From: Gyrodactylus bullatarudis
Taxonomy: Eukaryota; Platyhelminthes; Monogenea; Gyrodactylidea; Gyrodactylidae
Assembly (NCBI GenBank): GCA_012064415.1
Contig: SSNU01000026.1
Location: forward strand, 293,117 to 357,116
DNA: 64,000 nt
Direction of reading: 5' to 3'
Shown here: positions 9,285 through 64,000 of the stretch, one piece after another
Position numbering within the stretch: position 1 is the stretch's first letter
How the letters are laid out: the number at the start of each line of letters is the position of its first letter
Translations under genes and position numbers: made by a program
Notes under the pieces: model-generated
Seen by the model: the letters and a program-made list of their open reading frames with translations, nothing else
Databases searched by the model: none
Told to the model about the DNA's origin: nothing

Positions 9285-9286
9285 TT

Positions 9287-10523: not shown

Positions 10524-10526
10524 TCT

Positions 10527-36603: not shown

Positions 36604-39600
36604 TCAGATATTATTTTGTTGTTGTTCCCAGAGATTTTTGTAGAGGGTGTCCTTCTCTAGTAACTCAGAATGTGTTCCTGATTGGATCACTTTGCCGTTT
36701 TCAAGGAGGAATATTCGATCTGAATTTGTAATAGTACTTAAGCGATGGGCTATTATTATTGAAGTTATATCCGGAGTAATACTCTGGAGATTCCGCATGA
36801 TACTCTTCTCGGTGATGCTGTCGAGAGAAGAGGTGACCTCATCAAATACAAGGATGGGAGTCTTTTTCAGGATGGCCCGAGCAATGGCAACACGTTGTTT
36901 TTCGCCGCCACTTAATTTCAATCCTCTCTCGCCGACCTTGAAGAGAAATTATTGTTCAAGTTATAGCTGAGAAAATAAGTGAAACCAAGGGAAAACATAG
37001 AGAGTCAGTTATTGTATGACTTCTAAATAGCGAATTTGTTAATTTTTGTTCTGCTTATAAGTTCTACTTATTAGTATCTTAATTTTAGATAAATATATAT
37101 TAGAGTGGGCCAAATATTTCAGTTTTTACCAGCTTTATCTAATCTCATTTTGAAGATAATCGAAAATTAAGAATCTTATCTTCATACGTTTTCGAGTTTA
37201 TTCTGATCTACAAAATCTCGATTGAGAACGACAATTTTGAAGACGCGCCAAGATTTTTTCAATGAATTTTACTACGAGAAAGGAAAAAGATTTTTGAATA
37301 CTTTTTGCAATTTTTTGAATGAAAGTAGGGCTTAAAGTAAGAATTGAGCCTTTTTTTGTTGAAAGAAATTGCTAGGAAATTACGTAAATTTTGAAAACAG
37401 AATTCATGACGTCCCTCTTTTTATGCAGGGTTCAAATATGTATTAGCTCTTGAAATTAATCATTTTGATTCTTAGGCATCGTAGGTTAATTGGATGCGGA
37501 AAAGTCACACATCTGGCCTTACATCTAGTATCTAATTTATAAGCTAGTATGTAAAACTATGTATGGCAGTTATTGTAGCATTTACGTTATTTTTCAAATT
37601 TTTTATATCTGAAAAAATATTATTTTTGAGGTTCTTTTAATATAAAAAAATAATTCAGAAAGGGTAACTAACCAGATCAAGTATTTCCCAATGATATCTT
37701 ATCATACTAATACATAGTTTTACATATCACACACATGTTTGGTGTAATTGAAAAATCGATTTACCTGAGTCTCGTATTGATTAGGCATACTCATGATAGA
37801 ATTGTGAAGGTCAGCTGTTTTGGCTGCCTCGATAACCTGTTCGTCGGTAGCTGAAAGATTTCCATATCTTATATTATACATTATGGTGTTATGGAAGAGG
37901 ACTGTGTCCTGGGGTATGACTGATATCATTTTCCGCAACGACTCCAGATTAACTTGAGAGACATCTTGATTGTTGATGAGAATTCTGCCTTCCTGCGGAT
38001 CATAAAAACGATAGAGCAATCGAATTATCGTGGATTTACCACTGCCACTGCCGCCAACTAGAGCGATTCGAGATTTTGGTGGGACCTTTTTAAGAAATAG
38101 GATAACAAAAAGAACTTTCATTGGTGAGTTTTATTCTTAGATCTCTGGTTCAACGAGAAAATTCATGTATTTTTCTCTTGATTTGAAGGGTAAATTTGAT
38201 AATTATTGATTTCTAAGATTTAAACCATTTAAATTCTGATATTTCGAATCATCATTAGACGTAGAATACAAATTTCACCATAGAGGTTGATAGAAACTCG
38301 CCATTTCCAAGAAAAAGTTAAGCCTCCAAATTTTGGATCATTTCTGTGAACTTCTCTAGGCGAGTTCGAAATTTTCGTCTAATCTTGATCCGAAATATCA
38401 GCATTCAATTTCTTTATATTTTCGAAGTCGATAAAAAATCTTTCGAAAATTGAAAAACGGCCTCATTTTTGTCAGATTGAATATTTTTCATTTCAACAAC
38501 TAATAGGATTCAAAAAATGTAGAGTTTCCTTATGTTCAAGTGGGTTTCTTTTTGTCTGCAACAAAAAGGACTAAACTAAAACTTACCTCTAGACTGAATC
38601 CATCAAGAATATTTTTACCAGTCTTCTCGTTTCCATCATAGGCGAATTTGACGTTTTCGAATCGAATTGTTGATGTTTCCTTTGTCACATCCAGCATTGG
38701 GGCATTCGGTAAAGACTGAAAGATAAAAGTTGTGTTATTAATTTTCTTCAATTGGAAATTGTAGAACTTGCAGTTATCTTTGATTTAATATCCAAAAGCT
38801 CAAACATTGTACTCATGTCAATAAGGGATTGTCGAACTTCCCGATAAACAGTGCCGAGGAAATTCAACGGTACTGACAACTGGAACAAGAGGCCGTTGAC
38901 CAAAACTAAATCTCCAACTGTTAGAGGTGTCGACTAGAAAAGAAACGGTTCAATGAGCTATCCCAGAACTAACCGAGATAAAGTTTGGATCGATAATTTG
39001 AGTCACAACAAATCCCATAGTGCCAGCTATGCCCGCACTGAAAATAGCTGCCTGACCAAAATTTAAAAAGGCAAGACTTTTGGTGGTTTTGATACTTGCC
39101 ACTTCATATTTTGCCTGAAGATCATCGTATATTTTTGCTTCGTGATTTTCATTGTTGAAATATTTTACTGTTTCATAGTTTATGAGGGAATCTGTGGCAT
39201 GGTTTGCAGCTAATCCATCATTCTTGTTCATTTCCCTGCGAAATTGAGTTCTCCATCTTGTAATGCTAAATGTGAAAGCCATGTAGGATAAAATTGTCGC
39301 CAGGGATATGGCACTGCAGGGTAATCCATATTTTGAGTACAAAATCGAAGTTACTAGAAACACTTCAAAGAATGTGGGCAAAAGGTTGAAAGCAATAGCT
39401 GACAAAATGAATGAGATGCTTCTTGAACCTCGATCGATTGCTTTCCCAAGGCCCCCAGTCCTTCTGCTGAGATGGTATGATAAATCAAGATTGTGCATAT
39501 GTCGAAAAACTGTAACTCCTACATTTCTAATCGAGGACTGGGCTGCTTTAGCGAAAACAGCTGTTCTCAGCTCATTAAGACCACTTCCGGTAGCTCGAAA

Positions 39601-40065
39601 TATACCATCTTGAAATTAAAAGGTAAATGCAATAAATTACAAGCAATCATAACTGCTAGTGCTGAATCTGAAAACGAAAGATTCTCCACAGGAATAGGAC
39701 CTGTCAACTTGTCAACACCATATTTGAAGATGAATGGAACTGACACATTAACAAGCTTGGACATAACAAGCAATGAAAAGGCTAAAGAAACCCTTGCTTT
39801 AATATCGGGCCGGTCCTTTGGCCAGATAAATTTGAAGAGATGAGTAAATAATTTTAGATCCTCAAGATTAGAGTAAGACTTTTACCTTCTTTTCAAGATT
39901 TTTATCTTCGGAATTATTTCCATTTGCTTGGCTAGAGTGAAATTTATTATCAGCAGCAAACTTCCATAAGGGCTTAGTGGGGTTATTGGTTTTCAGATCA
40001 TGGAACTTGACATTATTTACATACAGAATATGACGATATTTAGGGAAAATACGATTAATAAACAT
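36604..40065 (-). CDS. ABCB7: Mitochondrial ABC half-transporter, ABCB7/Atm1 type
   Basis: Inner-membrane exporter linking mitochondrial Fe-S synthesis to cytosolic Fe-S assembly. The seven exons are 40065-39886, 39860-39641, 39608-38974, 38933-38772, 38715-38587, 38085-37765 and 36936-36604. They give 659 residues in one frame. Introns are 25, 32, 40, 56, 501 and 828 nt. The basic N-terminus fits a mitochondrial presequence. Family-specific blocks include [36 protein letters not shown] and [16 protein letters not shown] sequence. The nucleotide-binding domain has Walker [10 protein letters not shown] (about 453-461), signature LSGGE (about 557-561) and Walker B ILVFDE (about 577-582); Val replaces the usual Ala after DE. 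Exon 4 uses a GC donor. The gene diverges from the kinase gene. Confidence 0.93.
38150..38530. repeat. Partial 27.7-kb family repeat inside an ABCB7 intron
   Basis: Contains cgaaaaacggcctcattttt-like, tttgtcagattgaat and tcgaagtcgataaaaaatc blocks shared with 28.2-28.3, 9.27 and 49.1 kb. It accounts for most of the 501-nt intron. Confidence 0.55.
38716..38771 (-). other. GC-AG intron of ABCB7
   Basis: The minus strand reads ATAACT|GCAAGT...ATCTTTCAG|TCTTTACC. Only the GC donor keeps the frame; the GT four bases on shifts it. GCAAGT is the usual consensus for GC donors. Confidence 0.7.
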
Positions 40066-40177
40066 GATTTTTATACATTTTTCATTTTACTAAAATTTTT
40101 GATATTTAACCTTATTTAAAGCAAGAACGCAAACGAGTTAATATGATTATTTAGTTATAAATGTTGCGAAAATTCAA
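40066..40177. promoter_or_regulatory. Shared divergent promoter interval (ABCB7 / kinase)
   Basis: Only 112 bp separate the two start codons, which read outwards. Both 5' UTRs and core promoters must lie here or overlap the neighbouring gene. I see no clear TATA box or named factor site. Confidence 0.6.
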
Positions 40178-43100
40178 ATGAAGAAAATAATTTCTTTACT
40201 TCAATCCAATGATTTAGAGGATAGTTTACACAATAATCCTGTGAACAATAACTCTTGTTTATCACTTGTTGGAAAGAATGTATCCTTTGATCATTCTGTT
40301 TATCAGGTCGACGATGTCATTGCCGAGGGAGGTTTCGGAATTGTCTATCGAGCAAAATCCTTGAGAAATGAATATTTTGCTCTCAAAAGGCTGTTTGTCA
40401 ATAACCAAATGGATTTATCTACCATAAAAAGAGAGATAACAATAATAGTAATTCTATAATTTTTTCTTATTTATAAAGAGCTCAATCAATCATAAAAATA
40501 TTATAAAATATATGAACTCAAAAATTACGGAGACACACAATGGTGTCTATGAAATTCTACTGTTGACACTTTATTATCCAAAAAATCTGTCCAAATTAAT
40601 TTTGGATCGACAAAATAAGAAGAATCGTCTCACTGAAGATGAAATTGTCAAAGTTATTTGTGATATGACCGAAGCCATTGCTCGTCTCCATCATTGTCAA
40701 ACTCCGATTATCCATCGGGATATTAAGATAGAAAATGTCCTGATTGATATTCACGGGAATTATGTTCTATGTGATTTTGGTAGTGCCACTAGCAAAGTTC
40801 TTTCTCCTACGCATCATGGTTATCAGAGGTGTCAAGAAGAAGTAACACGGTTAGTCTTTAAAAATTATCTTATTCTCTCATTTTACTATCGAATATTTTG
40901 CTTAGGTACACAACTATGGCGTATCGAGCACCGGAAATGGTCGATCTATTCACTGAAGGCAGAATGGTTCTGGGCACCCAAACTGACATCTGGGCTCTCG
41001 GAGTTTTATCTTATTGCCTATGCTTTTTCAGTTTACCCTTTGGAGAGATGGGAACGCTGGCCATTCAATCTGGTGTCTTGCCCGTTCCACATAACCAAAT
41101 ATCCGAGAGACTTATGAAGCTAATTGGTTTGTTCCCTCTCTTTTGTATCACAACAGAATGAAATCATCAGAAAAAACTAGGTTAAAAATTCAACTAGATC
41201 ATCAACGATCAATTGCAGAATTTCTTCCGTTACTTGAAGAAAATATTGATTTTCTCTAAAAGATTATCATAAATTTTTATAATTACACTTTATTTACAGT
41301 ATACATGCTAACGTTTGACTGGAAGACAAGACCGGATATCTTTCAAGTAGCTTGGTTATCATTTGCTTTAATCGGAAAACAATCCCCAATAGAGAATCTC
41401 AATGCAAGTTTTTTTTTCAATACTCCTATATTTTTAACACTTCTTTCCTGTATAAAATTCATCAGATCTTCGTGTAGATTTCGATAAATATTCGAATTTG
41501 TTTTTTTTCCAATTCTAGCTCACATTACGGTATTAAAATTGTCTCTACAATTCGTCCCCTCAAATTTCTGAGCTACCTCTTTTGGTTTAGGAGCTATGCT
41601 ATTTCAATTTTTTTAGTAATACATACATAAAAATTCAAGATTCTTTTCAAAGTTGTCAGACCTAAAATAGTAAAAAAAGCCATATTTTTCAACTATATTT
41701 AACTTTTTAGAGTTTAAATTCGAATATTTCTCGAAATCAACACACAGTATAAACATTTCCGCTAGTTTCTGTGTAATTTTATTTGATAGAGATGAATAAA
41801 AGTAAATTTCTCTCTTCAAAGCCTGATGCCAACGTTTTTGTTACTCAAAACTAATCACATCTCATGTGAGATATCAATATATTCTATAAAAGTCTTGCAT
41901 CTACTCCTGTATATTCCTATCCCAGATTTATTTTTGGGCCTATATGGGATAATATATTAAATTCAATTTAATCTACTCTTACCTATTTTTATTGAAAATG
42001 TCTATCATTCATTGTGTTGAATCGATATTTGATTCTGATTAGTTAAATTTTAAATTTTTGATCATAATTTGACCTTTAACCTAGAATATGAATCTGCCAA
42101 ACTTTGAAAGCATTCCCCTCCACAGAAACTCGAACGGTAGTTTTATACTCAGTCAAATTAAAAATGGAAATGTAGAAAATCACGAGAAAACACAAAAGTT
42201 TGAATTTCAATCAGACAAAAAGTTGGTTCATTAGAGAGACCCCTTGAAATAATTACATTAAACTTTTAAATGTTTAGAGTTCCCCAAAGAGTTCTTAGTA
42301 CTTCAACTGATGGAAAGATTGAACGTCCCCGGCCAAAGACTAACAACCCTGTCAGTAACCAGACAAACCTGTTACTTATTGATAAGCCAAGTGAGTTGCT
42401 TTCTTTTGGCCGTGAATTTACAATAGGGTTCATTATTTACACCCAGAAATACAGTGAAAATGGGAATATTCTTGTTAAATTGTGTTGGACCAATCAAAAG
42501 CTCTTAGGCCTAGCCTTTTCACGAGATTGATTGGCCTTAGAAACAGCATGAATCAAGTGAAGAGATTATAAGTATCAAGAAAAACAAATTATTCTTTGAT
42601 TTTTAAGAATTTTTTTTCATAATTCTTATGAAAATTTTAGCAATTTGAGCATCATTATGAAAATGGATAATTATTGATTTTTCTTGAGAAAAATTCACTT
42701 ATTCTTTACCGTTTTCTTGTATATGACTAACCCTTTCTACAAGTTCTTTCACTCACATGTATGATGGATATTTAAATAAGTAAGATTACAATCATTGATG
42801 AAACATGAATGAATTTTCCAAGGATTTCTTTCAGAATTACAATAAAACTTTCATCTGTTGTCTAACTGTGAGAGCGACAAAATCAGATTCAAAATTAGAA
42901 TCGAAAAAGAGTTTATTGAAAAAGACCTAAAAAGGGGCTTGAGTTAAACATTTCAATTACTTCAGACAGAAAATCAATTGATACCAAGAATGTTAGTCTG
43001 AAAGTTTTGAAATCTAAGCCCAACTATTTAAAGATATTAAAAAATAATTAATACAATCAGCATGAAACTCGATCAGCATATTTAAAAATCAGTCTGGTAA

Positions 43101-46100
43101 TTATTTTTTCTCGAATCTGTTGACTAATCATTAACAATGAATATCCTTACTACATACAATAATATTTAAGAATGTATAAATCTGTAATCTTTTAGATGGG
43201 TCACTTTTTAGATTAGCAATTTAGTAGAACGATTAGGCCAAAATCCTAGGGTTCTGAACCCATTGAACTCTTTCAAACGAAAAATCGTTTAACCAATAAA
43301 AATGATAGAATTCCAGAACTCTGATTAGTTAACAAAATATAATCCAATAGAATTTCATTAACATGAAAAAATTTCGTTCTTCCTACTGCCTCTATCTGAA
43401 TGGGTGCAAAGGGTTCAGAACGCTACAAAATCCCATTTCAGTAGGATGAGATTTCAAAATGTACCAGAAATCAGGTCCAATTTTGAATTTTAATCCTCAT
43501 TAGGTGAAAATCAAGACCCCTGGCAAATGCAGAGCAAAGTTTTCGATGAAGAAGATCACGTGAGTCTACGTAGAAAATAGTCAAGTCAATTTCACACCTG
43601 ATGATGTCACATCTGCACAAAGCTCAACTTTATCTCGAAGCCCTAACTATGATTAGTCGAATCAAGTGTAAATTTATCATATTTGAGCTTTATAAGAATT
43701 ATCTCTTGACTTAAACTTGAGAATAAGAAGTAGTTCTTATTGGTTCATGCGAAAGAACGTAACATTTTCTACAAGATGGGCTCAAGTTTCAAATGTGTCA
43801 TAATTAGGGCCTCAAAAATAGTACCGAATAAATTAAACTGTTGCATATTTTACAAAATAAATCCTTATAGTTAAAATTTTTAATTCTATGTAAAAATTTT
43901 TGACTTGCTATCAGCTTACACGATAAAATACTGCTAGCCCATTCATCAAAAATTTTGATAGGTCGTTTACTAGTTGAAGATTACTTTAGTACTCTGAGAC
44001 TTAATTCAGAAAAATAGTTCAAAAAATTACCGGGACCACAGTTAAGTGCAGAAATAGTACCAGCTATCTTTAAATTGGGACAAGATAGCCAGATTTTTTC
44101 TTCAGATTATTGCAACTCAGCCAGTCCTCTGTCTAGAGTAAAAATAGACCAATTAGTACTTTTTTGAGGCCCTAGTCATAATCAACCATTACTTGTAAGG
44201 ATGAATTGACTGTGTTGAATTATTAGTTGAAGATATTTGTAAATATTTGTAGTTAATATCGACTGATTTTGAGAACGTTTTTTCGATAAGAAAGCCTTTT
44301 TGATGCTAAATTTACCGTATTACTTATGAGCAACTACAATAAATAATAACTAGGGCCCCAAAAAGTAGATTAAAATAGGGAAAAAACAGTTTTCAGAAAA
44401 AATTTTCATCTTTAGCCACGGTAAATTCATCAATGAATGTTACGCGGTACTTCAGGGCTTTTCTATAATGCTTGATGTGACATTTTAATCAATATGAATA
44501 ACCATTCGGCAAAAAAATTAGAAAATGGGGGGTGGTATTGATATCTTCTCTATGATTGTTCCATCACTTGGTATACTTGACGAGGACCAATAGGAGTAGA
44601 GATAGAATGTGAGAGATAGTCAAATGTAGAAATAATCATTTATAATAGTCTATTATTATTTTAGGCTTTTAACAATGAAATAGGCCAAAAAAGTCGTTTA
44701 TAAAATCATATTCAATAGGTATAACGTAACAAAAATGATCTGAAATGGCATATTACATAATATAGTAATATATAAAATTGAAAAGTCATTTTTAGGCTTT
44801 TTGAGGCCCCAGTGATAACTAAAAGATGTGTCCAATTGCATCGAGTTCATACATCATGTATTTTTAGGTATTTTTCCCAAGAATTTCTCCCACCTGTAAA
44901 CATACATGTAAGTTTAGTTTGTTAGTTAACCTTTTCATCCTTCACATTGGCTATTTCCCTACTGATTCTCATCCAAGCACAATTAAAGCAAAATACTGCC
45001 ACAATTTGAATTTTTTTCATTTTAGATTGTATTGTAATTTGCTAACAAGATTAACACTGGGGGGGGGGAGAGAGAGCTGAATTTCTTTCCATAGACTCGC
45101 ATTCAATATGTTCTCTATCACATTGTTGGTGAGCTACTTTGGGCCTTATTCTAAATAAATCAACTTTCTTCGAATGATTATTAGGCCGGTAAAAAGTCGA
45201 AATTTGCTAATAAACAGCTCATTTTAGTACTAATGCTACTTAAGGTTTCAAGTAATCTTTTTTTATAAGTGAGATAAAATGTCGATAAATGTCGAAAATT
45301 TAATCCATAACTGTAACAATCCCTTAGATCAATGACTGATACTGTAAATAATTCTTTTGAAAAATTCCTTATTTTCGAATCCATCCAATGAAAATTAAGA
45401 AACTAATTTTCTAGTCTTTTTGTTAATTTACTGACATAAGTGATGACTACAATCAAGTGGTTGGCATGTGTGGAATGGTCTTTCTCAATGCTCAAAAATG
45501 TTCTAACAAATAACGAATTATTCAAGACTGGCAATCTAAAAGAGCAATTTTATATTCGCTTAATTATATCACACTATTTTTGAAAGATTAATAAATTTAA
45601 TTTAATAGGCTCATATCCTCGTAATTTACCTAGAAAACGATGTCGATTTCGTGAAGTAAAAAATGTCGAGAATAAATTTCAAATCTTAAAGAAGCGTCAA
45701 ATTCCCATTTTTTTGAACTTCGAGTTGAAAAATTTTGCTGACTTCAAAGTGAGAGAGTGATCAAAAGTTGATTTTTAGGATCACAATAAAACAAGAAAAC
45801 CGATGAACTTGTCATTTTTCAGGGATTTTGGATCATCGAAATTGATTTTTAATTTGTGAAAATGATCATGAGAGGATTGTTCTCAAAATATATATGGTTT
45901 ATTTGATTTCTTTGACTAATTGTAATCATAAAAATTAATTTTTGGCTACACTTTGCAATCAGCAAACATTTTCAAGTTGAAAAAATGAGAATTTGGTGCT
46001 TAAAAGTTTTTTTCTCCGTATCTTGAAAGTGGATCTTATTTTATTCGATTTCTTGATGAAAAAATTGAGAATTTAATAAAAATCATGAATTCCCATCTTC

Positions 46101-46847: not shown

Positions 46848-47399
46848 ACAGAATCAATCTTCCCAAGTCAGAATCTCTTGAACCCTTCCCCTCTTATTCG
46901 CATTATACATTATTCAAAATTCTATTTATCACAGGAACATAAACTTTGGCAAAGTTCAAGCCCAATTTTTTTTAAATTGAATACATGAATATTTAACTAG
47001 TCATCATCTCTTGTTTAAATTCTTCCACAATGCACCAAATTCAATTTCTCTCAGTTTTCAATTGACTATTTGAATGAAACAAAAATAGAAGAAATAGAAT
47101 AGCTTTAGTTAAACAGACAAGTTTTATATAAGAATATTTTTAATAATGGTTAAAATCGTTTGGAATCGGACAATTTTAGGTTATTCTTGTATCACTGAGT
47201 TTGACAGAATATCATCAAAATTACTAAAAGGGAGATATATACATTCATTAATTGATTATTTCAAGTTATGTTAAATAAGATATATAGTGTTGTAGGAGTT
47301 GAACCAACCAGAAGAGCAAAGAGACAACTCTGTAAAAATTAATTTATATTTATTTTTCTTTTCACATCGGCAAATTCAAAGGCAGATTGTGGAGGGGAT
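46848..47399. other. Convergent 3' intergenic region (kinase / Elongin A)
   Basis: 552 bp between two converging stop codons. On the minus strand AATAAA at 47349-47354 lies about 46 nt past the Elongin A stop. No clear AATAAA follows the kinase stop closely. No gene inside. Confidence 0.55.
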
Positions 47400-50300
47400 T
47401 TATCGAAACTTTTTGCGAAGTTTAGCTAAAAGATCACCCCCTGGTTTCGGCTTATTATTCTGGAGAGATTTTGTGGCCAAAAGTCCACGGGTACCATCAG
47501 GGTGACTCATATTCTTGGGTATAAGTATTTGACTACCCTGCGTTCGACTCGACGATGAGGTTGGATTTGTTCTGGCCGGCCTGGAGATTGAATGTGATTG
47601 AAGTGGAAAAGATTTACGCTGTGTATTTCTAGGGTTGATTGCATCTACTGTTAGTGTGGTTCTTTGGGCTGAAAAATATATGAATATTTCAATTTACTTA
47701 TAAAAAATATCTATTCTATTTTGATTTGGTGAAATTTCGAGAGTATTGATTGGTTCATTCTTGGGCTTTGAACTTAAGAGTTTTATATTTTTTTAATTTT
47801 AAGCCAAGTTGATAATTTAATATCGGTCGAGAATGGCGGATCTCTGAGAAAATTAATTATTGTTTGATTCTGATTCTAAATCCCCTCTCCAGACGACTTA
47901 TTTCCGAAATGATAAACAAAGTGAAGGATTTATTAGAAATCAAAATTTTTACGAATCTGTATGATGATATTATTTTCGAAAATTTTAATTCAGTCAACCG
48001 AGTATCAAGATGAGCAAGCTATATTTTATTGCTGAATAGCTTGTTAATCTTGAGACGTGGTAACAAGTTTAGTCTTAAGACTACCTGATAGTAACAGTTG
48101 GTCTTGTCAGGCAGAAACTTTTGCGATAATTAGAGTACTCTACGATCGACTATCGTTTATTTTATAAAGAATGATCCGTGTATTCGAATACTTTCAGTAT
48201 GAATTTCGTTAATTATACATTCAATGGACATTGTTAATTCGAGAAAGAGTCTAGCTTTGAATTTGCTAATGAAAAAAGAGAAAAACGAAAAGAAATTCTT
48301 CACAAACTGCCTCCAGTTCTAGACAGAAGAAATATTCTTTAAAATCAATCAATTCAATAGTGTTAGAAAAGAAATCTTGAACTTGTATTACAGTACGAAA
48401 TGTGTACTTTATGTCAAAAATCACCATTTCCTTTCTAGCCTCTTCTTATTTAAATAATAATACAACCTTTTTTTACTTATAAGTAGGCATGATTCAACTC
48501 AGATAACCTGATAAGACATGATACAGAAACTTTTAAATTAACAATGGTAAACCATATATATTACTAGCTGATTTATGATTGGTCGAAATGTGTAGCCATC
48601 ATAAGTTTTCTTACATTGACCAGAACTATGTTTAGAATAGTGAATTTGAACCGGGAAACAGTTCTCAGTACAATATGCATCCAAATTTCAAACCAAATAG
48701 AGACGTTAGAAATAAACGTGTTTAATGATTCAGGACTCAACTACTCAAAATTCACAAAACCAGACTCGTGTACATAAAATTTTTAAAAGATATTGATTTT
48801 ATGTAACAGAAACAGATCCATTTAATCAATAATTACTTATAAAGTAACCTGAATTGCTAGGCTTTTCTTTGTTTAAATAAATAAGAATAAAGAATGAGCT
48901 TGAATCAATTCGAAAATTATTATGAATTAGATATTATTATTAGTTTAAACGGGAAAACGTTCGAAAGTCATATTATCAGTATATATAAACCTAGTTGACA
49001 TGAAGATGAGAATTTACTATTTGTTATTCATCAAATAATTTTTTGAATTCTTAAACGGAATGAGCTAATAAGATGTGGATATTCGAAAAGATGCCGAAAA
49101 AATTCAATCTGACCAAAATGAGGCCGTTTTTCGAATTTCGAAAATGTACCAAATTTTTATCCATTTCGATGATTTGAAGCAGTTAAGTGATGATATTTGG
49201 GATCAAAATTGAACGAAGAATTCGAATTAACCTGTAGAAGTTCACTGAAGTTCGTCATTACTGTGGGAAATCGAACCATTTGAATTTTCCGATTATCACG
49301 AAGGCAAATTATCCAAAATCATGAAGTCTATGAATCCTGAAAATGATGAATTTAAAGATTGTTTTGATTAAAACAAACTGAAAGGTTCATTGTTACCAAG
49401 ATATTTCAATCTGATGTAAAATACATTAGAAAAGAGTATATATTATTTATAAATTTGATGGTCAAACTCTTTGTGGATCCAGCGAGAAGAAAATTAAAGA
49501 CTCTCCCGAATGTTGCAACGTGAATTTTCTTTAAACTCTATCTTGACTGACACAACATGCTTATTAGCAAGCAAAATACCATTTATTTATGAAAAATTAT
49601 GAATAGTCAGAGGAATAGGGTAGCGGAACTTGTTTTTCTTCTTTTGCCAAACAATTCGATTTTGAGAATGAAATCAATCTTGAAGTAAAAGATTTTCCCA
49701 ATCCAATGGGTTTTTTCCAAAAGTAGAAATATCATTCTATCACAAGGCAATGATGCAAATATGTACTTTATTTTAACAAATTTTAGGCAAAACTGTGTTT
49801 TCAAAGGAACCAAAAGTTGCTCGTAAACTTAAACTAACACTTTTAAATAAATAATGTTTACCTAATAGTGTCATAAACAAGGGTACACCATTTATCAAAG
49901 GTTCATCAGATTTCTATTTATTCGAAAAATTGTAAATTATTATCACTATCATTCAAACTTTTGGCACTAATGAACCTTTGAGAAATGTTCATTTGATGTA
50001 GTATGTAATAAAAATAATAATAATTTTGGATATTAGCCCATCGAATATACCGTACACAGTAGATTTGGACTAAATTCGCCCATCAATATATAAATTTTTT
50101 CAAGGTATATCACTGAAATTGGAAATTATGTATGGTTTCAGAATACGTTGATAACGAATACAATGCAATTTTCTTCAAAAACCAACCTTCACTTTAGAAG
50201 TTATTGACACATTAAGAGACCATTTTTAGAAGCTGAAAATGGCCAACTTTAATCTTAAAAGATGATTTCCAGCTGATCGCATTTCCGAATTCAACGGGTA

Positions 50301-53300
50301 TGGTTTCTCGATAAAAGTTTCTTTCTCTTTTCTCTTTGATCTTTGTGAGTTGTTTTTCAAAAAAAACGTTATTTAAATTTCAAGGAAATTTAAATAATTT
50401 TTTTTCAAGTCATAGCTTATTCGAGAAAATATTAGTTCTGAAAAGTGGCCAATAAATGAGTTTTAGCTTCTTTAGGACAGAATTATGGCTTGAGAAAGTT
50501 ACCTGTCCCATGTATATGACACACTGGGACTTGAAAGGTTAGAAAAGATTCAAGTAAAAGATACAACCAAAAGGTTTTGCACGAATAAATTATGTAAAAT
50601 ACTTACCGTTTTGTTCTGCTTTGACCTTGTTCGATGTTCGATTAATGAATTTCTCCAATTTATTTTCACAATCACGTTCTAGCTTTTTGTACAGATCTGA
50701 TGGTTTCAATTTGGGGTTCTCTTTCATAATCTTGTTAAAGTTGACCAGGGGATAATCTTTGCCGGCTTGTTTTATCCAATACGGCTGAAGTTCATCGTTA
50801 TATTGCTGAATAATAATAATAGCTATTAGATCCTTTTCTTCTCATATTGAACGAGCCTCAGAATTGGTAACCATCCAAAAAAAGGATTAAAACTGAAAAT
50901 TTCAAAAACACTAAAACACAAGTTACAAATATTTTTCAGATATAAATTTAGTTTAGTTGAATTCAGGAATTCAGGCAAGCAAATGGTAAAAAATTTTACG
51001 AATATCTTTTTTATTTAATATCAGATTTTATTTATAAATATACTAAACGAAAGATTTATTTTTTCGTTTAAATGACAGTTATTTCTTAAACTTAAAATTA
51101 GAATCTATCATAAAGGTATACAAATTTTAAAGATAATTTTCTCAATTTATCTTCCATTTCAGCACCTGATTGACTAACTAATGCTTTATAGCATTAAAAA
51201 TTTTGATATCGAATACAGTGAACTTCCTAAAAAAAGTATATAAAGAAGAGGATCTGACTAAATTATTTAAACCTCTCTACTAATGAGTAATGAGATGAAT
51301 TTAAGATTTTTTCTCTCCAAGTCAACCCACTTTAAGTGCTTCTATCTCTCTTATTTCAAGTTCAAATGGGTTGAAAATTCGAACATGTCATCTATGTCTA
51401 TCTTTATATCACCGGAATAAATTTCTAATTCATATCTCCTAAAACAACAGAGTTCACTATTTTTGATCCTAGCTCACTGAATTAAACACTATTCGATGCA
51501 GAATCAAAAGTTGAGTCAGCTGAGTAATTTCCATTGCAAAATATTGCCTGGGGACATTTTTATTAGAACATAAACCCCGTTTCTAATTTTTTAAACTCAT
51601 TTCAATTTTTTTTGGAAAATCTATAAGAAAAGTCGTTTTCACAATTGAGAGACCCCCTCTTTTAACCAAGCCAAACAACTACGTCACACTCTTTCTAGCT
51701 TAGTCATCGTATAGAAGACCCCCTTTTTTCCTATTTCACGTTCTGAGGATTTTTTCCTTTTCATTTTTAAACAGAGGAAACTTATTATTTCTCACTCCTA
51801 TAATTCAACTTTTTAACGAAGAATTTTTTCTCTTCAATCAAGAATCTTTATTCAATTAACATAAGATAATTTTTTAAAATAGTGAATGAATGGTGATTCT
51901 TTCCTTGTGCACTTTCGTTCCCTTTAACTTTGGGATTAACATGATCTCTTTTGTCCTTTATCATTCTTAAAGCTGAAAACGACTTTTCTTATAGATTTTC
52001 CAAAAAAATTGAAATGAGTTTAAAAAATTAGAAACGGGGTTTATGTTCTAATAAAAATGTCCCCAGGCAATATTTTGCAATGGAAATTACTCAGCTGACT
52101 CAACTTTTGATTCTGCATCGAATAGTGTTTAATTCAGTGAGCTAGGATCAAAAATAGTGAACTCTGTTGTTTTAGGAGATATGAATTAGAAATTTATTCC
52201 GGTGATATAAAGATAGACATAGATGACATGTTCGAATTTTCAACCCATTTGAACTTGAAATAAGAGAGATAGAAGCACTTAAAGTGGGTTGACTTGGGGA
52301 GAAAAAATCTTAAATTCATCTCATTACTCATTAGTAGAGAGGTTTAAATATTTTAGTCAGATCCTCTTCTTTATATACTTTTTTTAGGAAGTTCACTGTA
52401 TTTTCTTTTGACAACAACCTTGGAAGAAGATTTTTTATAGTTTAAGTAAATCGATCTAATAGCTGGACTTGAAAAAAAACCTGTAAAGAAATAAAATCTG
52501 AAGTGTAGCTTCACCAGATTATGTTCTGTAATCATTTCAAGAGTGATTAAAATCTAGAGTTGGATTTAGTTAAGATTATGATTAGAAAAAAACACGAACT
52601 GTTCAAGAAAGAGCTTACGAATGGACGTTATGCATTCAAACAAGAAAGTTCACCTTGCTATCGTTCAAACTCAACTAGAGAATGATTCAAAATGTTTATC
52701 TGGTCAAGCTTCCCAAAGTATTCATCAATAAATTGAATATCTTTACCAGTGGTGAACCTGAATCATATTTTGATCAAACTCATAAGAGACGTTGTAAGAA
52801 CCATTGAAAAGAAGGAAGAATTTCTAAATTAAAATACACAATCATGCAAAAAAGGAGGTAGCAATAAAATTTGGAGGGCTTGATGTGAAAGTAAGAAATA
52901 TCAAAAAAAAATTTTCAGCGTGTAGTTTTCGAGTAATTTGACATTTTGTAGAGAAAAAAGAGTCAAATTTTATCGTATAGTGTTTTCATTTCTCAATGAA
53001 TATTCGTATAAGACATACCATTTTGAAGAGCAGAAAATTAGCTACAAACCTTTGTTTGACCATTTTGAGCTTTGACATATAAATTCCGAGATATTTCCAA
53101 TAATAGTGAAATTTGTTCGAAAATAAAAAAAAATGAAAAAATTCAAAAGCTTTTTTCAGTCCTTTACTAATGGTCAAGAAAATTTTCCTTCAAATTCTAA
53201 ATAGTGTAATAGTGGAATTTAATTTTAATGCTTTTAAATTTCCAAAAAAGTCTTTTATAAGACCTAAATTCGGGAAAATGCGTACAATTTTACGGATTTT

Positions 53301-55490
53301 TAAAATTTACAATTTGTGATGTGAATGAACTTAGAAAAAATTTTGAGTATAGTAATTATCAATAAATGAAATATCTTTACCAGTGGTGAACCTGATCAAA
53401 CTCATAAGAGACGTTGTAAGAACCATTGAAAAGATTGAAGAATTTTTGAATTAAATTATTGAGAGTGGTAATTTTGAGTTTGAGAAATAACTTTCAATGA
53501 AACGAAAGATGTGAAATAGTAAAATCTTTCGTTTGGTAACAATTTCAATGAATTCTCGAATTCATTTTACACAAAAGAGATGAAATTATAACCTTTGATT
53601 TACAAGACGTAAATTTGAATTTATCAAGATATAGGTCCTCTCTTTTGGAAGATGGTTTACTTTCATAAGTAAAACTTTTAGAACAGCTCTAAAAACCCTA
53701 AAGCAAGAAGCTACCAAATTCAAGAAAACACAAATAAAGTATTACCCGAAAGAAGTTAGGAATAATTTTTTAGCAATATTTCAGTATTGAGAAAAAATAC
53801 TCATAGCACACGACAGAGAGTTGTTCCCATGAAAAACTTTTTGAATGTTAGCGAGAACAATTTCGAATATTGGAGAATAAAGTCTACAGTTGGCTGGCAT
53901 AAAGAAAATTTATCAAATTTTTTTTTATTCATTATTTTCACTCAAATAAAATAATAAAGTGTGCAGAATCTTTTTAGGTAGCAGAGTGTGTTACCAGATT
54001 GAATTCACACCACGCAATTTAAACTTCTAGAGAGAATTTTATGCTCTAAAATGTATTAGATACTCTTGAATAAGATGATGAGAATAGAGAATAGATTTTC
54101 ATTAGGTTCTCTCCAGATTATATTACAAGTATTTTGATTGGAAAGATAAAAATAACATGCATTAAAACATCAAATTTACATTGTACATTTCTCAAAGAAT
54201 CATCAAAAAACACCAAAAAACTCTTCAACTAGCAAGAGTTTAGAGAAAGGTGAAATATTGAATTTCTATAGTAAAAATGTAGATGGGTTTCTTTTCTTGA
54301 AAAAGCAAGCATAGGAAAATTAATTTGTTGTATTTGTCCAATGAAATCAATTATTGATTCCAGATTGTATTTGCTTTGAAGAAAAAACAAAGTTTAATCT
54401 CCATTTAGATCAGCTAGCTAGGAATAAAAGGGGAAAGCACAAACATTCACATAGCTTTGTAGACTGTATGTCATTAATAATTAAATTAAAGATTTTTCCA
54501 TGGAAATGTGCAAGAAAATCAATTTAACAGAACCAAAATAGATAGACTCTCAGATTGATAATCTTTTGATTATTCACGCAATAGAGGCAAGATAAATTCG
54601 CATAATTTGAGTAGAGATGATACAAAAAAACAATAAACGTACTGGATTGAACTTGTGAATCCGTCTAAGATCGGCTAGGGATATATTTGTAAGGGCTTTT
54701 TCAAAAATCTCAAATGGTAAATTCCCAACATGGTCCACTTGATGGATATGATTGGCCAGGACTTGAACACAGTTTAAAACTAGAGATTGGACCTTGTTAT
54801 TTTGACACGATTCTCCATTCGATGGTTTCCTCGGGGCATATAGAATTTTTTTGCTCTTGTACTTGAGGTTTCCAGCTTCAAATTCAGGGTCGATTTCTTC
54901 AGCTATAATACAGTAGTTTTAATAAGATAATTAAATGAAAAATTACCTTGTTGTAAGTCACTTTTGGACTTTTTAACCCTGTTTTTTATATAATCTGGTT
55001 CAAGACTAACATCAATTTTACCGCTAGTAGTTAATTCGATTGGTTTCCTTTTTAATGACTTTTTCTTTTGGGGAATGACTGGAACTTTGAGGGAATCCAT
55101 GAAGGATATTCCTGATGAAGAATCAATTGAACCATCATCATCAGGAAGCTTGACACATTTCTCAATTGGATTATTTTTTACAACGGGTTGGGGTTTTGGT
55201 TCTTTAATCTTTATGTTTTCCTTAGCTAAATGTTCCTCAAGAATTTTCTTCCATTTTTGAATGAGGGATTTTGAAAGACTACCTAATTCATTAGGTTCAT
55301 TCTTAAGACTCTTGACGGCTTTACCGATACCAGAACTTGAAAGTTCATTCAGGTTGAGGTCTATTTCTTCAAGAGTTTTGAGTACTTTGATTTTCTAAAA
55401 TGATGATAATCTATTTACTTTTTTGTTATTTATAGTTTTATCGCTTAAAGTCTGTCCCAAATGTATTAACTTATCAACGATAGATGTCAT
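47400..55490 (-). CDS. EloA: Elongin A (RNA polymerase II elongation factor)
   Basis: Elongin A stimulates Pol II elongation and binds Elongin B/C. The five exons are 55490-55419, 55394-54947, 54902-54643, 50805-50607 and 47668-47400. They give 415 residues; introns are 24, 44, 3837 and 2938 nt. The N-terminus has the TFIIS-N/LEDGF-like helical domain (LKTLEEIDLNL, GIGKAVKSLK, QKWKKILEE). The middle is basic and disordered. The C-terminal half has the BC box SLVLNCVQVLANH (about 213-225), then VGNLPFEIFEKAL, LADLRRIHKFNP and LQPYWIKQAGKDY, in Elongin A order. It ends with the basic tail LLAKLRKKFR, like the end of vertebrate Elongin A. It is about half the human length, mainly through a short linker. 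Confidence 0.9.
48985..49330 (+). repeat. Partial 27.7-kb family repeat in Elongin A intron 4
   Basis: Begins ataaacctagttgacatgaa and runs collinear with 27736-28120 through aatgagctaataag and gatttgaagcagttaa. It then ends without the opposite arm. Confidence 0.65.
51216..52398. mobile_element. 1183-bp near-perfect inverted repeat with TA/CAGT ends (Tc1-like fold-back)
   Basis: The left arm is 51216-51641 (426 bp) and the right arm 51974-52398 (425 bp), complementary apart from a few substitutions and one indel. The spacer is 332 bp with no coding frame. The ends read ta|cagtgaacttcc ... ggaagttcactg|ta. A TA target site and CAGT termini match Tc1/mariner elements. The high arm identity argues for recent insertion or for arm correction. 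It lies within Elongin A intron 3, so the pre-mRNA could fold a hairpin of over 400 bp. Confidence 0.85.
52682..53460 (+). repeat. Direct repeat pair of about 100 bp
   Basis: 52717-52835 and 53350-53460 share more than 90 bases, including tatctttaccagtggtgaac and actcataagagacgttgtaa. They differ by a clean 12-nt gap plus a few substitutions. In one plus-strand frame copy 1 encodes FTSGEPESYFDQTHKRRC. Copy 2 lacks exactly the ESYF codons. Whether it was ever coding is unknown. Confidence 0.6.
55395..55418 (-). other. 24-nt intron of Elongin A
   Basis: The minus strand reads AACAAAAAA|gtaaat...cattttag|AAAATCAAAG, phase 0. Removal is needed because the intron carries in-frame stops, and it restores the TFIIS-N-like domain. 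It is the shortest intron in the window. Confidence 0.85.
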
Positions 55491-55989
55491 AATTTTTTGA
55501 AACTTTCAAAACATAAAATTATTAAAACGAACACGAAAAATTAAAGATTACCATTAAAAATTGAAACTTTCAAATTCTCAATGATAAATGATTTGAGTCG
55601 ATGGAAAATTTCGAAATTCGAACGCTCCGGACGTTAACTTAACCTCGTTAAGCTAATCGGATCCTATTGACATTCTTCTACAGTCATTTGGAAAAATACA
55701 TTGCATAAATAATAAGATTTTATTTCCACTCCAGTATTTAGTTTTAGGTAATTTTGTGAGGTTAAGGGGCTACTCAATAGCAGAACATTTTCTTCCACAT
55801 TACAAATATGAATTTTTTCTTCAAATTAACAATAAAAAATGAAGAAAAAAATATAAGGAATACTTGAGTAACCTGATGATAAATTTAGTATACAAAAATT
55901 GGTTAAGATTATGTTTTGATATCATCTGTCGTAACTGAAATACATAGAAGTTTTCATTCATTAATACATTGGCAGTAGTTTCTCTTTCT
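55491..55989. other. Spacer between Arp1 stop and Elongin A start
   Basis: About 500 bp, holding the Arp1 3' UTR and the Elongin A promoter. No further gene seen. Confidence 0.5.
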
Positions 55990-57445
55990 TTAGTTAAACA
56001 ATTTCTTGTGGAGAATTTTGACTCCGTCTGTGTCGTATTCCCTCTTGGAGATCCAAATTTTCTTAAAAGTATCGAGGGAGGCAAGTATAGATCCACCTAT
56101 CCATGTCGAATAAATTCTTTCCTGAGGGGCACTTATTTTCATTCGAGCATCTTTGGGTATAGTCTTTTTTAATTCCGAAACGAGTCTGTCGCCAAATCCT
56201 GAATGAAGAAAATACAAATCAATATTCTCATGATAAAGATATATTAATCATTCAATTGTATCGTAAATTCCATTTCAATTTAATCTAAAATTAATCGATT
56301 TTATGCTAACTAAACTAAAAATAGGCTTGTCATTATTCTAGTGAGAGAGTTTGTCACTTACCTTTGAATAGAGTCGAGCCCCCGGACAGGACAATATTCT
56401 CATAGAGAGTCTTTCTAAGATCCATGTCACTCTTTTTGATTGAATAACTGAGAACCTAATGAAATAAAATAATCAGGTTAGATGAAAAAATGGATAAATA
56501 CTTCATGAATTCCATTGTACTCTTGTCCAATGATTTCAGGTCTAAAGAGGACCTCTGGAGCTCTGAATCTGGCAGAGCCGATATCAAGAATGGATCCATC
56601 TGGAAGACTATATTTAGCTGTTCCGTCAATTCCTTCGACTTTTCCTACATTCAAGCTGATGAAACAGGCTTTTTCTTTAATTTGTCGGACAATCTCGAAT
56701 TCTGCTGTAGTATCAAAGTTTGCTCCCTCTTTTCGGAGTAGAAGCCTTAAATGTCTGGTGACATCTCTACCAGCAAGATCTGAGCGTTCAATGGCATGAG
56801 GAAGTGCATATCCTTCATAAATAGGAACTGAGTGAGTAACACCATCCCCTGAATCTAGAACTACACCGGTTGTTCTTCCGGATGCATATCTAGAATAATT
56901 ATGTATAAAATATGAATAAATTACAAAGCGAGTACAGCTTGAATTGATATGTAAAGAGCTGGAACACTGAACGTTTCAAAAAATATTTCTGCCATTTTTT
57001 CACGATTCTTTCTAGGATTATTCGGTGGTTCTGTTAAGAGGACCGGATGCTCTACGGAATTAATCATGAGTTGATCTTTTCCATAGATGTAGGTCCAGAT
57101 GCGCTCCATGTCATTCCAATCTTGAATAATTCCGTGTTCGATTGGATATTTAATACTCATCAATCCGCGATGTTCTTCTCCTTTAGCCCCGATAAAGTAA
57201 TCTCCTTCCAAATACCCAGCCATTATTCTAGTATGCTTAGGACGAGCACAGCTTAATATTTTTAGAAATAATAAAATTACTAGTTAGGGAAGCGGTATTT
57301 AGGAATTTGATCACCGGCAAAGCCAGCTTTAATGAGACCAGTTCCCTGAAAATATTCATTTTAGAAGTTGAATAGTAATATAATTGTTAATACTAACTGT
57401 ATCAATGACAACAGGCTGATTGGTAATAACATCATAACCATCCAT
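55990..57445 (-). CDS. ACTR1: Actin-related protein 1 (centractin), dynactin filament subunit
   Basis: Arp1 polymerises into the short filament at the core of dynactin, the dynein cofactor. The six exons are 57445-57398, 57345-57281, 57251-56925, 56889-56502, 56455-56362 and 56198-55990. They total 376 residues, the exact length of vertebrate centractin. Introns are 52, 29, 35, 46 and 163 nt. Conserved blocks run the full length: [112 protein letters not shown]. The phosphate-binding loops ([20 protein letters not shown]) are present, so ATP binding is expected. VIANQ/VITNQ and IKAGFAGD distinguish it from conventional actin. Confidence 0.95.
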
Positions 57446-57734
57446 CAGAAATTAGGTTCAAATTATCAAAAAATTTTCTCAAGATTTAAAAAAGCTCAAG
57501 TTAAAAAGCTGATGTTGGTTTGTTTTTCAGTATTAATAAATTTAAAATTTCGGCAAAATAATTAAGCCGAGAGCTGTTGAAGAAGAATACTTCCTAATGA
57601 TTAGTAATAATTCACAACAATTAACTTTAAGGTGTTAACTTAAGCTTAGTCTTTAAGCTCAGTGTAATAAAAAATTGACTGATGAGTATGAGGAAATTTG
57701 AAAATTAGTTATCTTTATTAAAAATATAATATAT
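57446..57734. other. Arp1 promoter / CtBP 3' end
   Basis: 289 bp between two minus-strand genes. AATAAA (minus, 57714-57719) lies about 15 nt past the distal CtBP stop, so the rest is presumably the Arp1 promoter and 5' UTR. Confidence 0.55.
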
Positions 57735-60637
<2,903 letters not shown>

Positions 60638-63600
60638 TCAAGGGCGATGGTCTTTTTCGAGGATGCTGAAAACAAAAGTAGGAGATTAGATTTCATTAAA
60701 AGAAGGTTGAAATTCACAATAAACTTACTTGAGAATTTTTCCAACCTAGAGAAAGAGTAAAAGTTTATCAAGAGTTTTCTCAAAAAGATCAGTAAATTTG
60801 AATTAATTTTTAATTTTGTTACCACCATTGCTACAAGTAATTTGTAGCTCCTATTTCTTTAACCATAATGTTCAAAATGAAGGATTAACATTTGAAAGAG
60901 CCTTGGTGTGAATTCAAATAATAAGCTGTAATTGATTTTTCTTCTTCAAATTTTATGTGTGCAGTTTATGTAAAATTTGAGCAATCAAAAAGAGGTTGAA
61001 ATTTGAGTTAAGGATTATTCAAACTTTAAGTACATCATGTTAGGAAGAAAAGGAAATATCTACTATAGACGATTTACAAATTAAGATTTTTACGTTCAAA
61101 AACACCAGAAAATACACTTAAATACATAATTTAGAAATATGTAAGAAGATAAGAGATATATTAGTGGTCTCTCTTTAAAAGTGATAAAAACTACTCGTTT
61201 AGCCTTCAACTACCGTGGCCTATGTGAGCTTTCTCACCTTCTTCTCTTCCCTGTTGCTATTTATTGAAGAGTTTTTGGAGTTTTTTTCAGCTTACATCAT
61301 ATTCTTTTTTTCATTCATAACTTTTATTTTCTTTAACTCTTACTATTGCTTTTAAAAGTTGTAAATTATTATTTTTTATTCAGAATTTAACTTATCATTT
61401 TTAAAGAGAGATCACAGATGATCCTTTAAGAAATGTACATTTGATTTTAAATATATCTTCTTACATATTTCTAAATTAAGATTTGAGATAGTACAGAATC
61501 TTTTGGTGTATTTTTGAACTGATTTAAATGAGATTCATGCTGAAAATTGTAGTGATTGTACTACAACCTCTTAGTCTTGTACTTTTTCTACATTAGGGCG
61601 AGTCATATATTTATCTGTGTTTTTAGGGGTTAATAAATATTATTCATGGAGATGGGAATTTATTTTGGTACTGAGATAGTCGAGAACCTTCATCAGGTGC
61701 AGTGAATGGGACACTCGTAATCTTAACCCTTTTTAACTCAATCTTTATGCTTTAGAATTCCTATTGGTCTAGATCTGGAAAAAAGTTTGAATTTAAATAA
61801 AACCTAAACCAATCATGTCTAATCAGGAGAAAAAAGAGTCGAATTAAGAAGAAGTATAATTAAAATGATTTTGAAATCCAGATCAAGAGCACACTTTTAC
61901 CATTTGAAGAAAAATGAATATCTTTTTTCACCAACTAAGAACTGAGAGTTTTTTGTTCATTTCAAAGTCAAAGGTTGACCATTAGGCCTATTTGGCCAAT
62001 TTTATATGGCCTACTCGGCAAGTTATTCCTGACTAGCTCAACGATCTATAGGAAAAAATTTCAAAACGCTTTGCCATTCGGAAGAAGGTCCGGTCCAAAC
62101 GTGCTTGAGCCGCGTTTATGGAATTTCAAATATTTTACATCGTACTACTCATAAGCATATTTAGCAATCAAAAATTAGAAACCTTTTTTTTACTTGAAAA
62201 ATTACCATAGATTGATTCCAATTGAAGAAATTAGAAAAAAAATTTCTCATATTAGTTAGATCGTGTCATTCACTAAGGAAAGCACTTGACTATGTCAGTG
62301 CCAAAACGTCTAGAATTTTATAATGGATGGAAAAATAAACTAACCTTTTCATCAAGATCTCGCAAACGGGAATTTCTGCAAACAAAATAAAAATGAACGA
62401 GATAGGACACAGAATCAAAGTGGAGAAGAAAAACTGACATTTTTCTGACCTCTTTGGCAAGTTCATTTTCTCCTGTTGTAGCTGGAGATTCTGGCAATTC
62501 CTCATGAAATGTGAGAGGAGTTTCTCTTCTAAGCGGGGTATACTTGGGCAAGTTTAAAGAGGTATTTTTATCCTCAGCCGATTTGGTTACACTGAATCTC
62601 TTGGATATTCCTGATACATGTTAAAAGATAATCTTACTCGGCTTCTTAAAGATGTCATCGTTATTTTCACGGTCTCTTCTTGAGGTGGAAAACATTTTAC
62701 GTTTGGTTGTCATGTTTTTCGGCCTGAAAATTATAGAAAATACGACTAACGTCATCTGTAAAAAGTTTACATCATCGTAAATGTTTGGATTTTTTATGTC
62801 TGCTGAGGTGTCTGGACTCATCAGAATATCATAATCAATCTCAACTTTTTTTGTTTGCCTAGTTTTACTCCTTGTTTTGTAGTCATTTTTCTTGACTGTT
62901 GATCCTCGTTCCTTTGACTTTAACACTCGTTTTATAACATTCTTTTTCTTTGTATTTTCCAGGACAATTGCTTAAATAACAAAATTAGGTTTAAATCAAT
63001 CGTATATTTCAGCGCATCTCAGTACTAATTTTGTGTGCTTTTTCAGTTAAATGGTTCTGATTTGTTGGAAAATCAAATTAATTAATCAAAAAAATTAACA
63101 TGACCTCAATAGTTGAACAAGGAATGTGATCAAGTAGTTAATCGAAATATCTATAGATTTTTCAGGTTTCTAAATTTCTATTGATTACTTTGAGTATTCA
63201 AGTTGGATGTTGTGTAATCTATTTCTCGTGGATTTTCCGGGGATATTTCATTTAGAGAGTTCCTCATGGTCAAGTTGATAAGTCTCTTTGGGGTTTTGGA
63301 AATCTAAAATTTAATTTTTGTAAGAAATTTCAGCAAAAATTTTTTTTAATAAAAAAAATAAAATAAAACTCTGAAGCATACCGATTCCAGATCTGAATAA
63401 TCTGATTCTACATAAATTTTAGGGGGTAAACTGTAACTTGAAGCAAGATTTTTCAAAACTTACGCAAAAATGATTCAGAAAATTTGAAACTCTCTTCCTA
63501 GTAAAATTATTTCTTATAGATTCATCGTGTTCTTGCAAATTTATTTAAACTCACCAGTTTTGTAGGAGACTTTTCCCTTTTATCACATAGTAAATCAATA

Positions 63601-64000
63601 ATGTTTACTTTACTGACTGATTCCTGGGACAATATTTCCTGTTTGCCTGCTTCTTCTACTAGACTTTTTTCCTGGAAGTTTTCAAACGTATCAAACTCCC
63701 CATTGGTTTCCTCTGAGGGAATGACATTCGGCATGCTCTCTTCAATTTGAGGTGCTGAAGAAATTTCTTGCTGGCCTTTCTTTTCAACTATTTTCGTATT
63801 CTTCTTTTTTGCTGATTGAGCAGATAGATCCAAATCAACCTCTTCGCCAAGATGCTCCTCTTGCATGGTATCGATGAGGGATTTCTCTCCTTCAACTAAT
63901 CTTTCACAATTGGTAAGGGTTTCTTCAGGATTCTCGTCAATTAGAGATTCATTTAGTTGATTGATTTTTTTTGTTTTAATAATAAGGTTGAAGTCATTTG
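60638..64000 (-). CDS. Unidentified acidic/basic protein with C-terminal coiled coil (5' end outside window)
   Basis: I do not recognise the family. Exons read from the window edge: 64000-63555 (partial), about 63436-63382, 63303-63189, 62970-62751, 62723-62638, 62610-62439, 62375-62345, 60745-60729 and 60665-60638. From 63436 on, phases agree at every junction; introns are 78, 218, 27, 27, 63, 1599 and 63 nt. The 63555 donor (phase 0) does not match the phase-2 start at 63436. An exon there is unresolved; a 34-nt candidate at about 63465-63498 has the wrong phase. The protein is acidic near the start (EEHLGEEVDLDL) and basic in the middle (KKKNVIKRVLKSKERG). It ends in a heptad-like helix, EVRKINSRLRDLDEKVGKIL. 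The penultimate exon is a 17-nt micro-exon. A scaffold or chromatin role is possible but unsupported. Confidence 0.65.
61097..61520. mobile_element. Fold-back element in the 1599-nt intron
   Basis: tttagaaatatgtaagaaga at about 61131 recurs inverted at about 61449-61475, and tctctctttaaaa.tgata at 61170 recurs inverted at about 61395-61413. Weaker matching of caaaaacacca extends outwards. No target duplication recognised; arms are imperfect, so it is probably an old MITE. Confidence 0.5.

Follow-up and report, generated by a model that had tools for sequence, protein, structure and literature searches.

The window analysed here is a 64,000-nucleotide stretch (contig C141, positions 293117-357116; GC content ∼32%) of a 77.3-Mb genome in 471 contigs. 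It carries the genes for ABCB7, a NAK (AAK1/BIKE-like) kinase, Elongin A, Arp1, and CtBP together with the 3' part of an SYCP2-like gene, and introns of only 24 to 35 nt lie within several of them (Table 1). Introns of ≤45 nt, here termed ultrashort, were found to form a discrete length class with a mode near 32 nt that mostly occupies ranks 1 and 2 among the coding introns, and the remaining introns show no rise in length along the gene. Taken jointly, these features are probably best read as those of spliceosomal GT-AG introns (a few GC-AG) with one such positional class, for which a mechanism is proposed below.

Introns were predicted with our own gene finder, the intron-length prior of which was blind to rank; it was trained on 240, then 290 kb of C141 and applied as well to four further stretches (C467, C98, C241, and C420). 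Most introns of the initial annotation were recovered unaided. The 25-nt intron of ABCB7, the 24-nt intron of Elongin A, the 56- and 173-nt introns of the NAK kinase, and the 163-nt intron of Arp1 were missed or misplaced by the final gene finder and were confirmed by direct reading, and the 56-nt intron of ABCB7 was found only with GC donors allowed. The lengths given by the initial annotation for ABCB7 were reproduced exactly, as were those for CtBP, Elongin A, and Arp1 (the first four by the gene finder, the fifth by direct reading and protein alignment). For the NAK kinase the first three lengths held, and a fourth intron of "about 874" nt could not be settled; this intron (41404) has a GC donor and an acceptor that is out of frame as read, and is possibly of the GC-AG type.

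Junctions were judged by alignment to solved homologues, with a minimum of five aligned residues required on either side of a junction before the first gap. This threshold was passed by nine ultrashort junctions of 26-40 nt in six genes, namely those of the introns of 29 and 35 nt in Arp1, 32 nt in ABCB7, 26 nt in talin, 40 nt in AKT, 30 and 31 nt in MAP4K4 (the latter with exactly five aligned residues), and 31 and 26 nt in histidyl-tRNA synthetase. Seven lay at an alignment edge or closer to a gap (ABCB7, 25 and 40 nt; NAK kinase, 31 nt; talin, 24 nt; Elongin A, 24 nt; AKT, 29 nt; XRN2, 34 nt). The Arp1 protein aligned with its solved counterpart across residues 1-375 of 376 (631 bits), gap-free at all five junctions. 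The other ultrashort introns, those of the SYCP2-like gene included, are predictions of the gene finder. In the homology-checked genes the introns have GT/GC-AG ends and their removal leaves a continuous conserved protein, as the initial annotation had stated. The intron lengths are thereby confirmed, and by homology the ultrashort introns are very probably genuine.

Table 1. Introns and one partial gene in the window, with the state of the protein alignment or the source of the coordinates.
Feature	Position in window	Strand	Length (nt)	Remark
ABCB7 intron 1	39861..39885	-	25	GT-AG, acceptor TTGAG off consensus; at conserved-region edge
ABCB7 intron 2	39609..39640	-	32	gap-free
ABCB7 intron 3	38934..38973	-	40	alignment gap adjoins
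ABCB7 intron 4	38716..38771	-	56	clear GC-AG; gap-free
ABCB7 intron 5	38086..38586	-	501	
ABCB7 intron 6	36937..37764	-	828	
NAK kinase intron 1	40448..40478	+	31	one-residue gap four residues away
NAK kinase intron 2	40850..40905	+	56	gap-free
NAK kinase intron 3	41127..41299	+	173	gap-free
Elongin A intron 1	55395..55418	-	24	weak alignment, near edge; retention gives in-frame stop
Elongin A intron 2	54903..54946	-	44	
Elongin A intron 3	50806..54642	-	3837	multi-copy repeats; coordinates from exon lengths
Elongin A intron 4	47669..50606	-	2938	coordinates from exon lengths
Arp1 intron 1	57346..57397	-	52	gap-free
Arp1 intron 2	57252..57280	-	29	gap-free
Arp1 intron 3	56890..56924	-	35	gap-free
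Arp1 intron 4	56456..56501	-	46	gap-free
Arp1 intron 5	56199..56361	-	163	direct reading; automatic model (77 nt) wrong
CtBP intron 1	58516..58574	-	59	
CtBP intron 2	57796..57854	-	59	
SYCP2-like gene, 3' part	61968..64000	-		gene finder; continues to ∼65985 beyond the window

The length distribution was examined on the automatically modelled introns, 160 in all. Those of ≤100 nt, numbering 102, resolved into two components with centers of 32.1 and 64.2 nt (Bayesian information criterion of 81.8 versus 104.5 for one component), the first being a separate mode well below 75 nt, and all lengths together were best fitted by three groups at 31.8, 63.7, and 480 nt; 50 of the 160 introns measured at least 200 nt. 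Three classes are distinguished below: ultrashort (US), short (S, 46-100 nt), and long (L).

Position was assessed by permutation of introns within genes, to which single-intron genes cannot contribute. The complete automatic set comprised 31 genes with at least two introns (158 introns). Since the gene finder split long genes (talin, MAP4K4) and merged neighbors (Arp1 with Elongin A), faults that were mended by forced merges, a curated set of 26 genes and 160 introns was also used, 20 genes of which lie beyond the window. A restored set, with all dropped multi-intron rows returned, held 30 genes and 185 introns. The ultrashort class lay early in the automatic set (z 2.75, p 0.004), in the curated set (z 4.69, and 3.34 for the 20 genes beyond the window), and in the restored set (z 4.23, and 3.05 beyond the window), which bears out the 5' bias of short introns noted in the initial annotation. 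In the curated set, 31 of 52 introns at ranks 1-2 were ≤45 nt compared to 8 of 86 at rank 4 or higher; with the dropped rows restored, the counts were 32/60 and 15/99.

The initial annotation had described a graded 5'-to-3' increase in length and proposed that length be tested against rank in a wider gene set. Over all introns, log length did rise with rank in the automatic set (z 2.56, p 0.005), in the curated set (z 3.50; 1.73 beyond the window, p 0.04), and in the restored set (z 3.00; 1.25 beyond the window, p 0.10); an earlier run on 30 of the 31 automatic genes gave z 2.60 for log length and 2.94 for the ultrashort class. When the introns of ≤45 nt were removed, there was no rise with rank in the curated set (z -0.36; 22 genes, 113 introns), its part beyond the window (z -1.63), the automatic set (z 0.16), or the restored set (z -0.65). 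Only the five genes listed by the initial annotation, for which the overall value was z 3.49, kept a rise among introns of >45 nt (z 2.51), so the graded look of the window is partly chance, and the listed genes overstate the effect. In the curated set, introns of 46-100 nt tended to lie late in the gene (z -1.91; beyond the window, z -2.09; minus denotes later), and a strictly monotone rise was seen in 4 of the 22 curated genes with at least three introns compared to ∼1 expected. We conclude that the ultrashort introns are a discrete positional class that prefers ranks 1-2 and that "gradient" is the wrong description.

The composition of the curated list bears on these values. Dropped from it were the 28- and 22-nt introns beside a 4-nt exon of talin (from a forced model), which lie late in the gene and are thus contrary to the 5' bias; the first intron of an nAChR gene, which follows a 3-nt exon; DLD introns 1-3 (upstream fusion); what looked like a fusion of AMPK-gamma and NF-YA; an incomplete enolase-like gene at the end of a locus; model g12; and the one-intron genes. 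Model g7 was retained though under the score cut of 15, the fourth NAK intron was entered as 874 nt although unsettled, and the junction of the 6447- and 79-nt introns of MAP4K4 was taken from the GC-allowing model, the alternative having a stop there. An ankyrin-repeat gene of locus L029 (introns of 149, 37, 18, 57, 32, 1162, and 23 nt) was inadvertently missing from both sets of the first round of tests.

Several observations weigh against a general placement of ultrashort introns at the 5' end. The gene models combine ab initio prediction and homology, and the introns are known here from the genomic sequence alone; the gene finder could overlook an initial exon that a long intron sets apart, which would favor the 5' bias result, and 5' untranslated introns fall outside the models, so that "rank 1" means the first coding intron. 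The known N terminus was reached or nearly reached by the Arp1 and MAP4K4 models. Late ultrashort introns occur in some genes, such as the SYCP2-like gene (27 and 27 nt) and the ankyrin-repeat gene (32 and 23 nt), and the glutaredoxin-thioredoxin reductase fusion gene (TGR) has 344 nt first, 55-74 nt later, and no ultrashort intron. An exon-by-exon family search over the genome, which gives approximate gaps, yields none for single-match genes, and leaves introns read through within a match uncounted, showed the bias weakly. Kinesin motors are mostly N-terminal; their gap lengths were like those at the C-terminal HECT domains (p 0.31), with 3/16 and 0/19 ultrashort, respectively. In dynein heavy chains the N-terminal gaps were longer than the C-terminal ones (p 0.04; ultrashort, 2/11 versus 1/11), and for the pooled families 5 of 27 N-terminal and 1 of 30 C-terminal gaps were ultrashort (p 0.09). 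The 5' preference is thus found in the permutation tests and is weak in the exon-by-exon families, and with dynein reversed and TGR beginning at 344 nt the five listed genes cannot be taken as representative.

Three other accounts of the short introns were weighed. That they are false, the gene model having bridged sequencing errors, frameshifts, or pseudogenes, could draw on the wrong automatic models and on the reading of introns from the genome only, but conserved genes align gap-free on both sides of the junctions, and two length modes with a donor and acceptor consensus are not expected from errors; we regard this account as exceedingly improbable. A true length gradient over all introns, by 5' shortening or 3' growth as proposed in the initial annotation, would explain the values for the five listed genes (including introns of >45 nt), the overall correlation in the 26 curated genes, and the later position of introns of ≥200 nt compared with all others (26 genes, z 2.74; beyond the window, 1.33; automatic set, 2.57). 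It is hard to reconcile with the absent or inverse trend among introns of >45 nt in the curated set, beyond the window, and in the automatic set and with the opposite order in dynein heavy chains, and there is little reason to favor it. Nor do we think it at all likely that short introns merely mark highly expressed or housekeeping genes: CCT genes have exon gaps of ∼60-115 nt where these could be derived and the conserved part of DLD has introns of 62, 42, 61, and 59 nt, but within single genes (MAP4K4, talin, AKT, and the within-gene permutation generally) the ultrashort introns still come first.

A further question is whether the ultrashort introns are spliced in a mode of their own, with a separate 5' splice site code (GTAAT/GTAAK versus GTRAGT) and other factors, in the manner of the human short introns that depend on SPF45 or on Smu1/RED. 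Guanine at position +5 was present in 21 of 47 ultrashort introns compared to 92 of 115 other introns (p 2e-5), and adenine at +3 in 81% compared to 52% in each other class; the ultrashort introns are thus not closer to the consensus. In the five homology-checked genes, +5 G occurred in 4 of 11 ultrashort introns (p 0.004), or 5 of 13 with histidyl-tRNA synthetase. Permutation of whole donors gave p values of 0.045 for US versus S and 0.017 for US versus L, whereas S and L did not differ (p 0.52). A RED_N protein is encoded in the genome. Against such a mode, the all-position donor test is modest, the +5 difference within ranks 1-2 alone was not significant (p 0.11), and wrong automatic models among the 47 introns could dilute the donor signal. 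Inspection of branch points, as suggested by the initial annotation, gave a motif in ultrashort introns no better than in shuffled sequences (13 of 60 shuffles matched it), and the microintron sites of Opisthorchis felineus are reported to lie nearer the consensus (PMC6530080). On balance a separate mode seems unlikely. Equally doubtful is the fuller proposal of two minimal-intron classes that would be recognized differently, one of ∼32 nt with GTAAK (+5 G dispensable) placed by selection at coding-intron ranks 1 and 2, for instance so that the first acceptor is shielded from the spliced leader, and one of ∼64 nt that, with longer introns, would use GTRAGT and lie later or unordered. The pyrimidine fraction before the acceptor was 0.686 in ultrashort introns and 0.759 and 0.72 in the other classes, and adjacent ultrashort pairs numbered 15 compared to 10.6 expected (p 0.022), an excess that is partly a product of the 5' bias.

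For the discrete positional class itself, we propose that pairing across the intron (intron definition) would be nearly the sole way to splice introns of 24-35 nt. Introns near the 5' end may be kept short since added length would cost initiation and early co-transcriptional splicing. Alternatively, a long first intron might attract spliced-leader addition at its own acceptor, or insertions near the gene start may be selected against. In Schistosoma mansoni, internal acceptors that receive the spliced leader tend to be stronger, to follow longer introns, and to have longer pyrimidine tracts (PMC5832876); a short first intron may therefore protect the first acceptor. Human cells require Smu1 and RED when the branch site lies close to the 5' splice site, with a distance of ∼50 nt quoted for efficient splicing (PMC6692369), and SPF45 substitutes for U2AF on truncated pyrimidine tracts (PMC8363638). 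Downstream introns would be free to drift and gather transposons. The large transposon-filled 3' introns of the initial annotation were borne out for the 3837-nt intron of Elongin A, the sole intron examined, which carries two or more multi-copy repeats: one element spans ∼1.2 kb and has inverted ends of ∼430 bp, and another, of ∼530 bp, has 94 listed matches, itself included (40 of 261 candidates were scored).

The genome is, by its mitochondrial code and nearest COX1 sequences, that of a gyrodactylid monogenean, a flatworm parasitic on fish. COX1 on a 14.9-kb contig is translated by the flatworm/echinoderm mitochondrial code, with TGA=W, AAA=N, and AGA/AGG=S (for example, DRNFN). Among the best 120 of 7996 matches it shared 90% identity with a Gyrodactylus cluster, and the values were lower for Macrogyrodactylus (86%) and for Cichlidarus and Paragyrodactylus (85%). 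Pyr_redox_dim matches fell at two places only in the genome. We take the gene models there to be DLD and TGR. This sole pair fits a parasitic flatworm (PMC2873472), and assemblies of 67-91 Mb with GC contents of 31-39% are reported for three gyrodactylid species (PMC12677651). The TGR model (L029, 613-3123, minus strand) has seven exons and introns of 344, 55, 74, 56, 61, and 66 nt; compared to the 17 exons of Schistosoma and Echinococcus (PMC2873472), intron loss is indicated.

Short introns of this kind are for the most part known from other flatworms. The microintrons of O. felineus show peaks at 37 and 90 bp, lie near the transcription start, and are clustered, and intron definition was proposed for them (PMC6530080). 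The present introns resemble these trematode microintrons in their two short peaks (32 and 64 nt), their 5' preference, and perhaps the adjacency of neighboring ultrashort introns, which is partly a result of the 5' bias. The slightly lower acceptor pyrimidine content (0.69 versus 0.76 and 0.72) may parallel the weakened polypyrimidine tract reported there, whereas the donor here departs at +5 from the long-intron consensus. Tapeworms and Gyrodactylus salaris likewise have two short peaks, at ∼36 and ∼73 bp (PMC5036155), but that Taenia paper places peak-1 introns toward the 3' end and peak-2 introns in the middle, unlike the 5' position of our ∼32-nt class; a correction has been published, and the comparison rests on the original text. 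The pointer of the initial annotation to schistosomes proved apt: sgtp2 and sgtp3 have introns of 31-41 bp early and large ones late, except for a large first sgtp2 intron (PMC4653847), and introns 2-4 of S. mansoni TGR are 34, 33, and 36 nt with later ones of 170-4231 nt, although its intron 1 is 1507 nt (PMC2873472) and TGR here lacks ultrashort introns. Dicyemid introns are similar in size, with a mean of 26.2 nt for 16 introns (PMC2222250) and a genome mean of 38 nt (PMC6736024), but the means there are short throughout, unlike here, where 50 of 160 modelled introns have ≥200 nt. Because 5' microintrons occur in Opisthorchis and early ultrashort introns in Schistosoma genes, the pattern does not by itself mark the lineage, as had been suggested. 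In the literature searched, largely outside subscription papers, we met no statement that microintrons lie at the 5' end in a gyrodactylid or that the two short classes differ at the donor; as far as these searches show, both the gyrodactylid 5' bias and the different 5' splice site of ultrashort introns are new.

Other features of the window were noted. The SYCP2-like (meiotic) gene has predicted introns of 28, 29, 23, 30, 33, 29, 251, 218, 27, 27, 63, and 299 nt, with junctions from the gene model alone, the first six being consecutive ultrashort introns at its 5' end; its Pfam match is weak (SYCP2_SLD, E 0.003, failing the cut-off). The start codons of ABCB7 (minus strand) and the NAK kinase (plus strand) stand head to head ∼112 bp apart (40066-40177), and this gap is likely a shared promoter. 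A tRNA gene, the sole Rfam match in the window, lies directly beyond the 3' end of ABCB7 (36425-36496, plus strand). The gene at 17281-20375, with two exons and one 989-nt intron, is presumably a SOX-family (HMG box) transcription factor, as named from the HMG sequence. The stretch 4979-11027 holds, on both strands, about five small reading frames that are related to one another, rich in cysteine, and secreted-looking, some of them apparently broken; the one examined had no Pfam match, and they are possibly a lineage-specific family.

For the annotation of such genomes, these results mean that the minimum intron length should be set near 20 nt, with read mapping to match. A loose "gradient" becomes a testable statement on one intron class at ranks 1-2, and the disagreement with the published 3' placement of tapeworm peak-1 introns makes a direct comparison of flatworm groups possible. 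If the donor difference is true, whole introns of 24-35 nt would be a natural test of the minimal spacing of the machinery at the 5' splice site and branch site, for which ∼50 nt has been quoted (PMC6692369).

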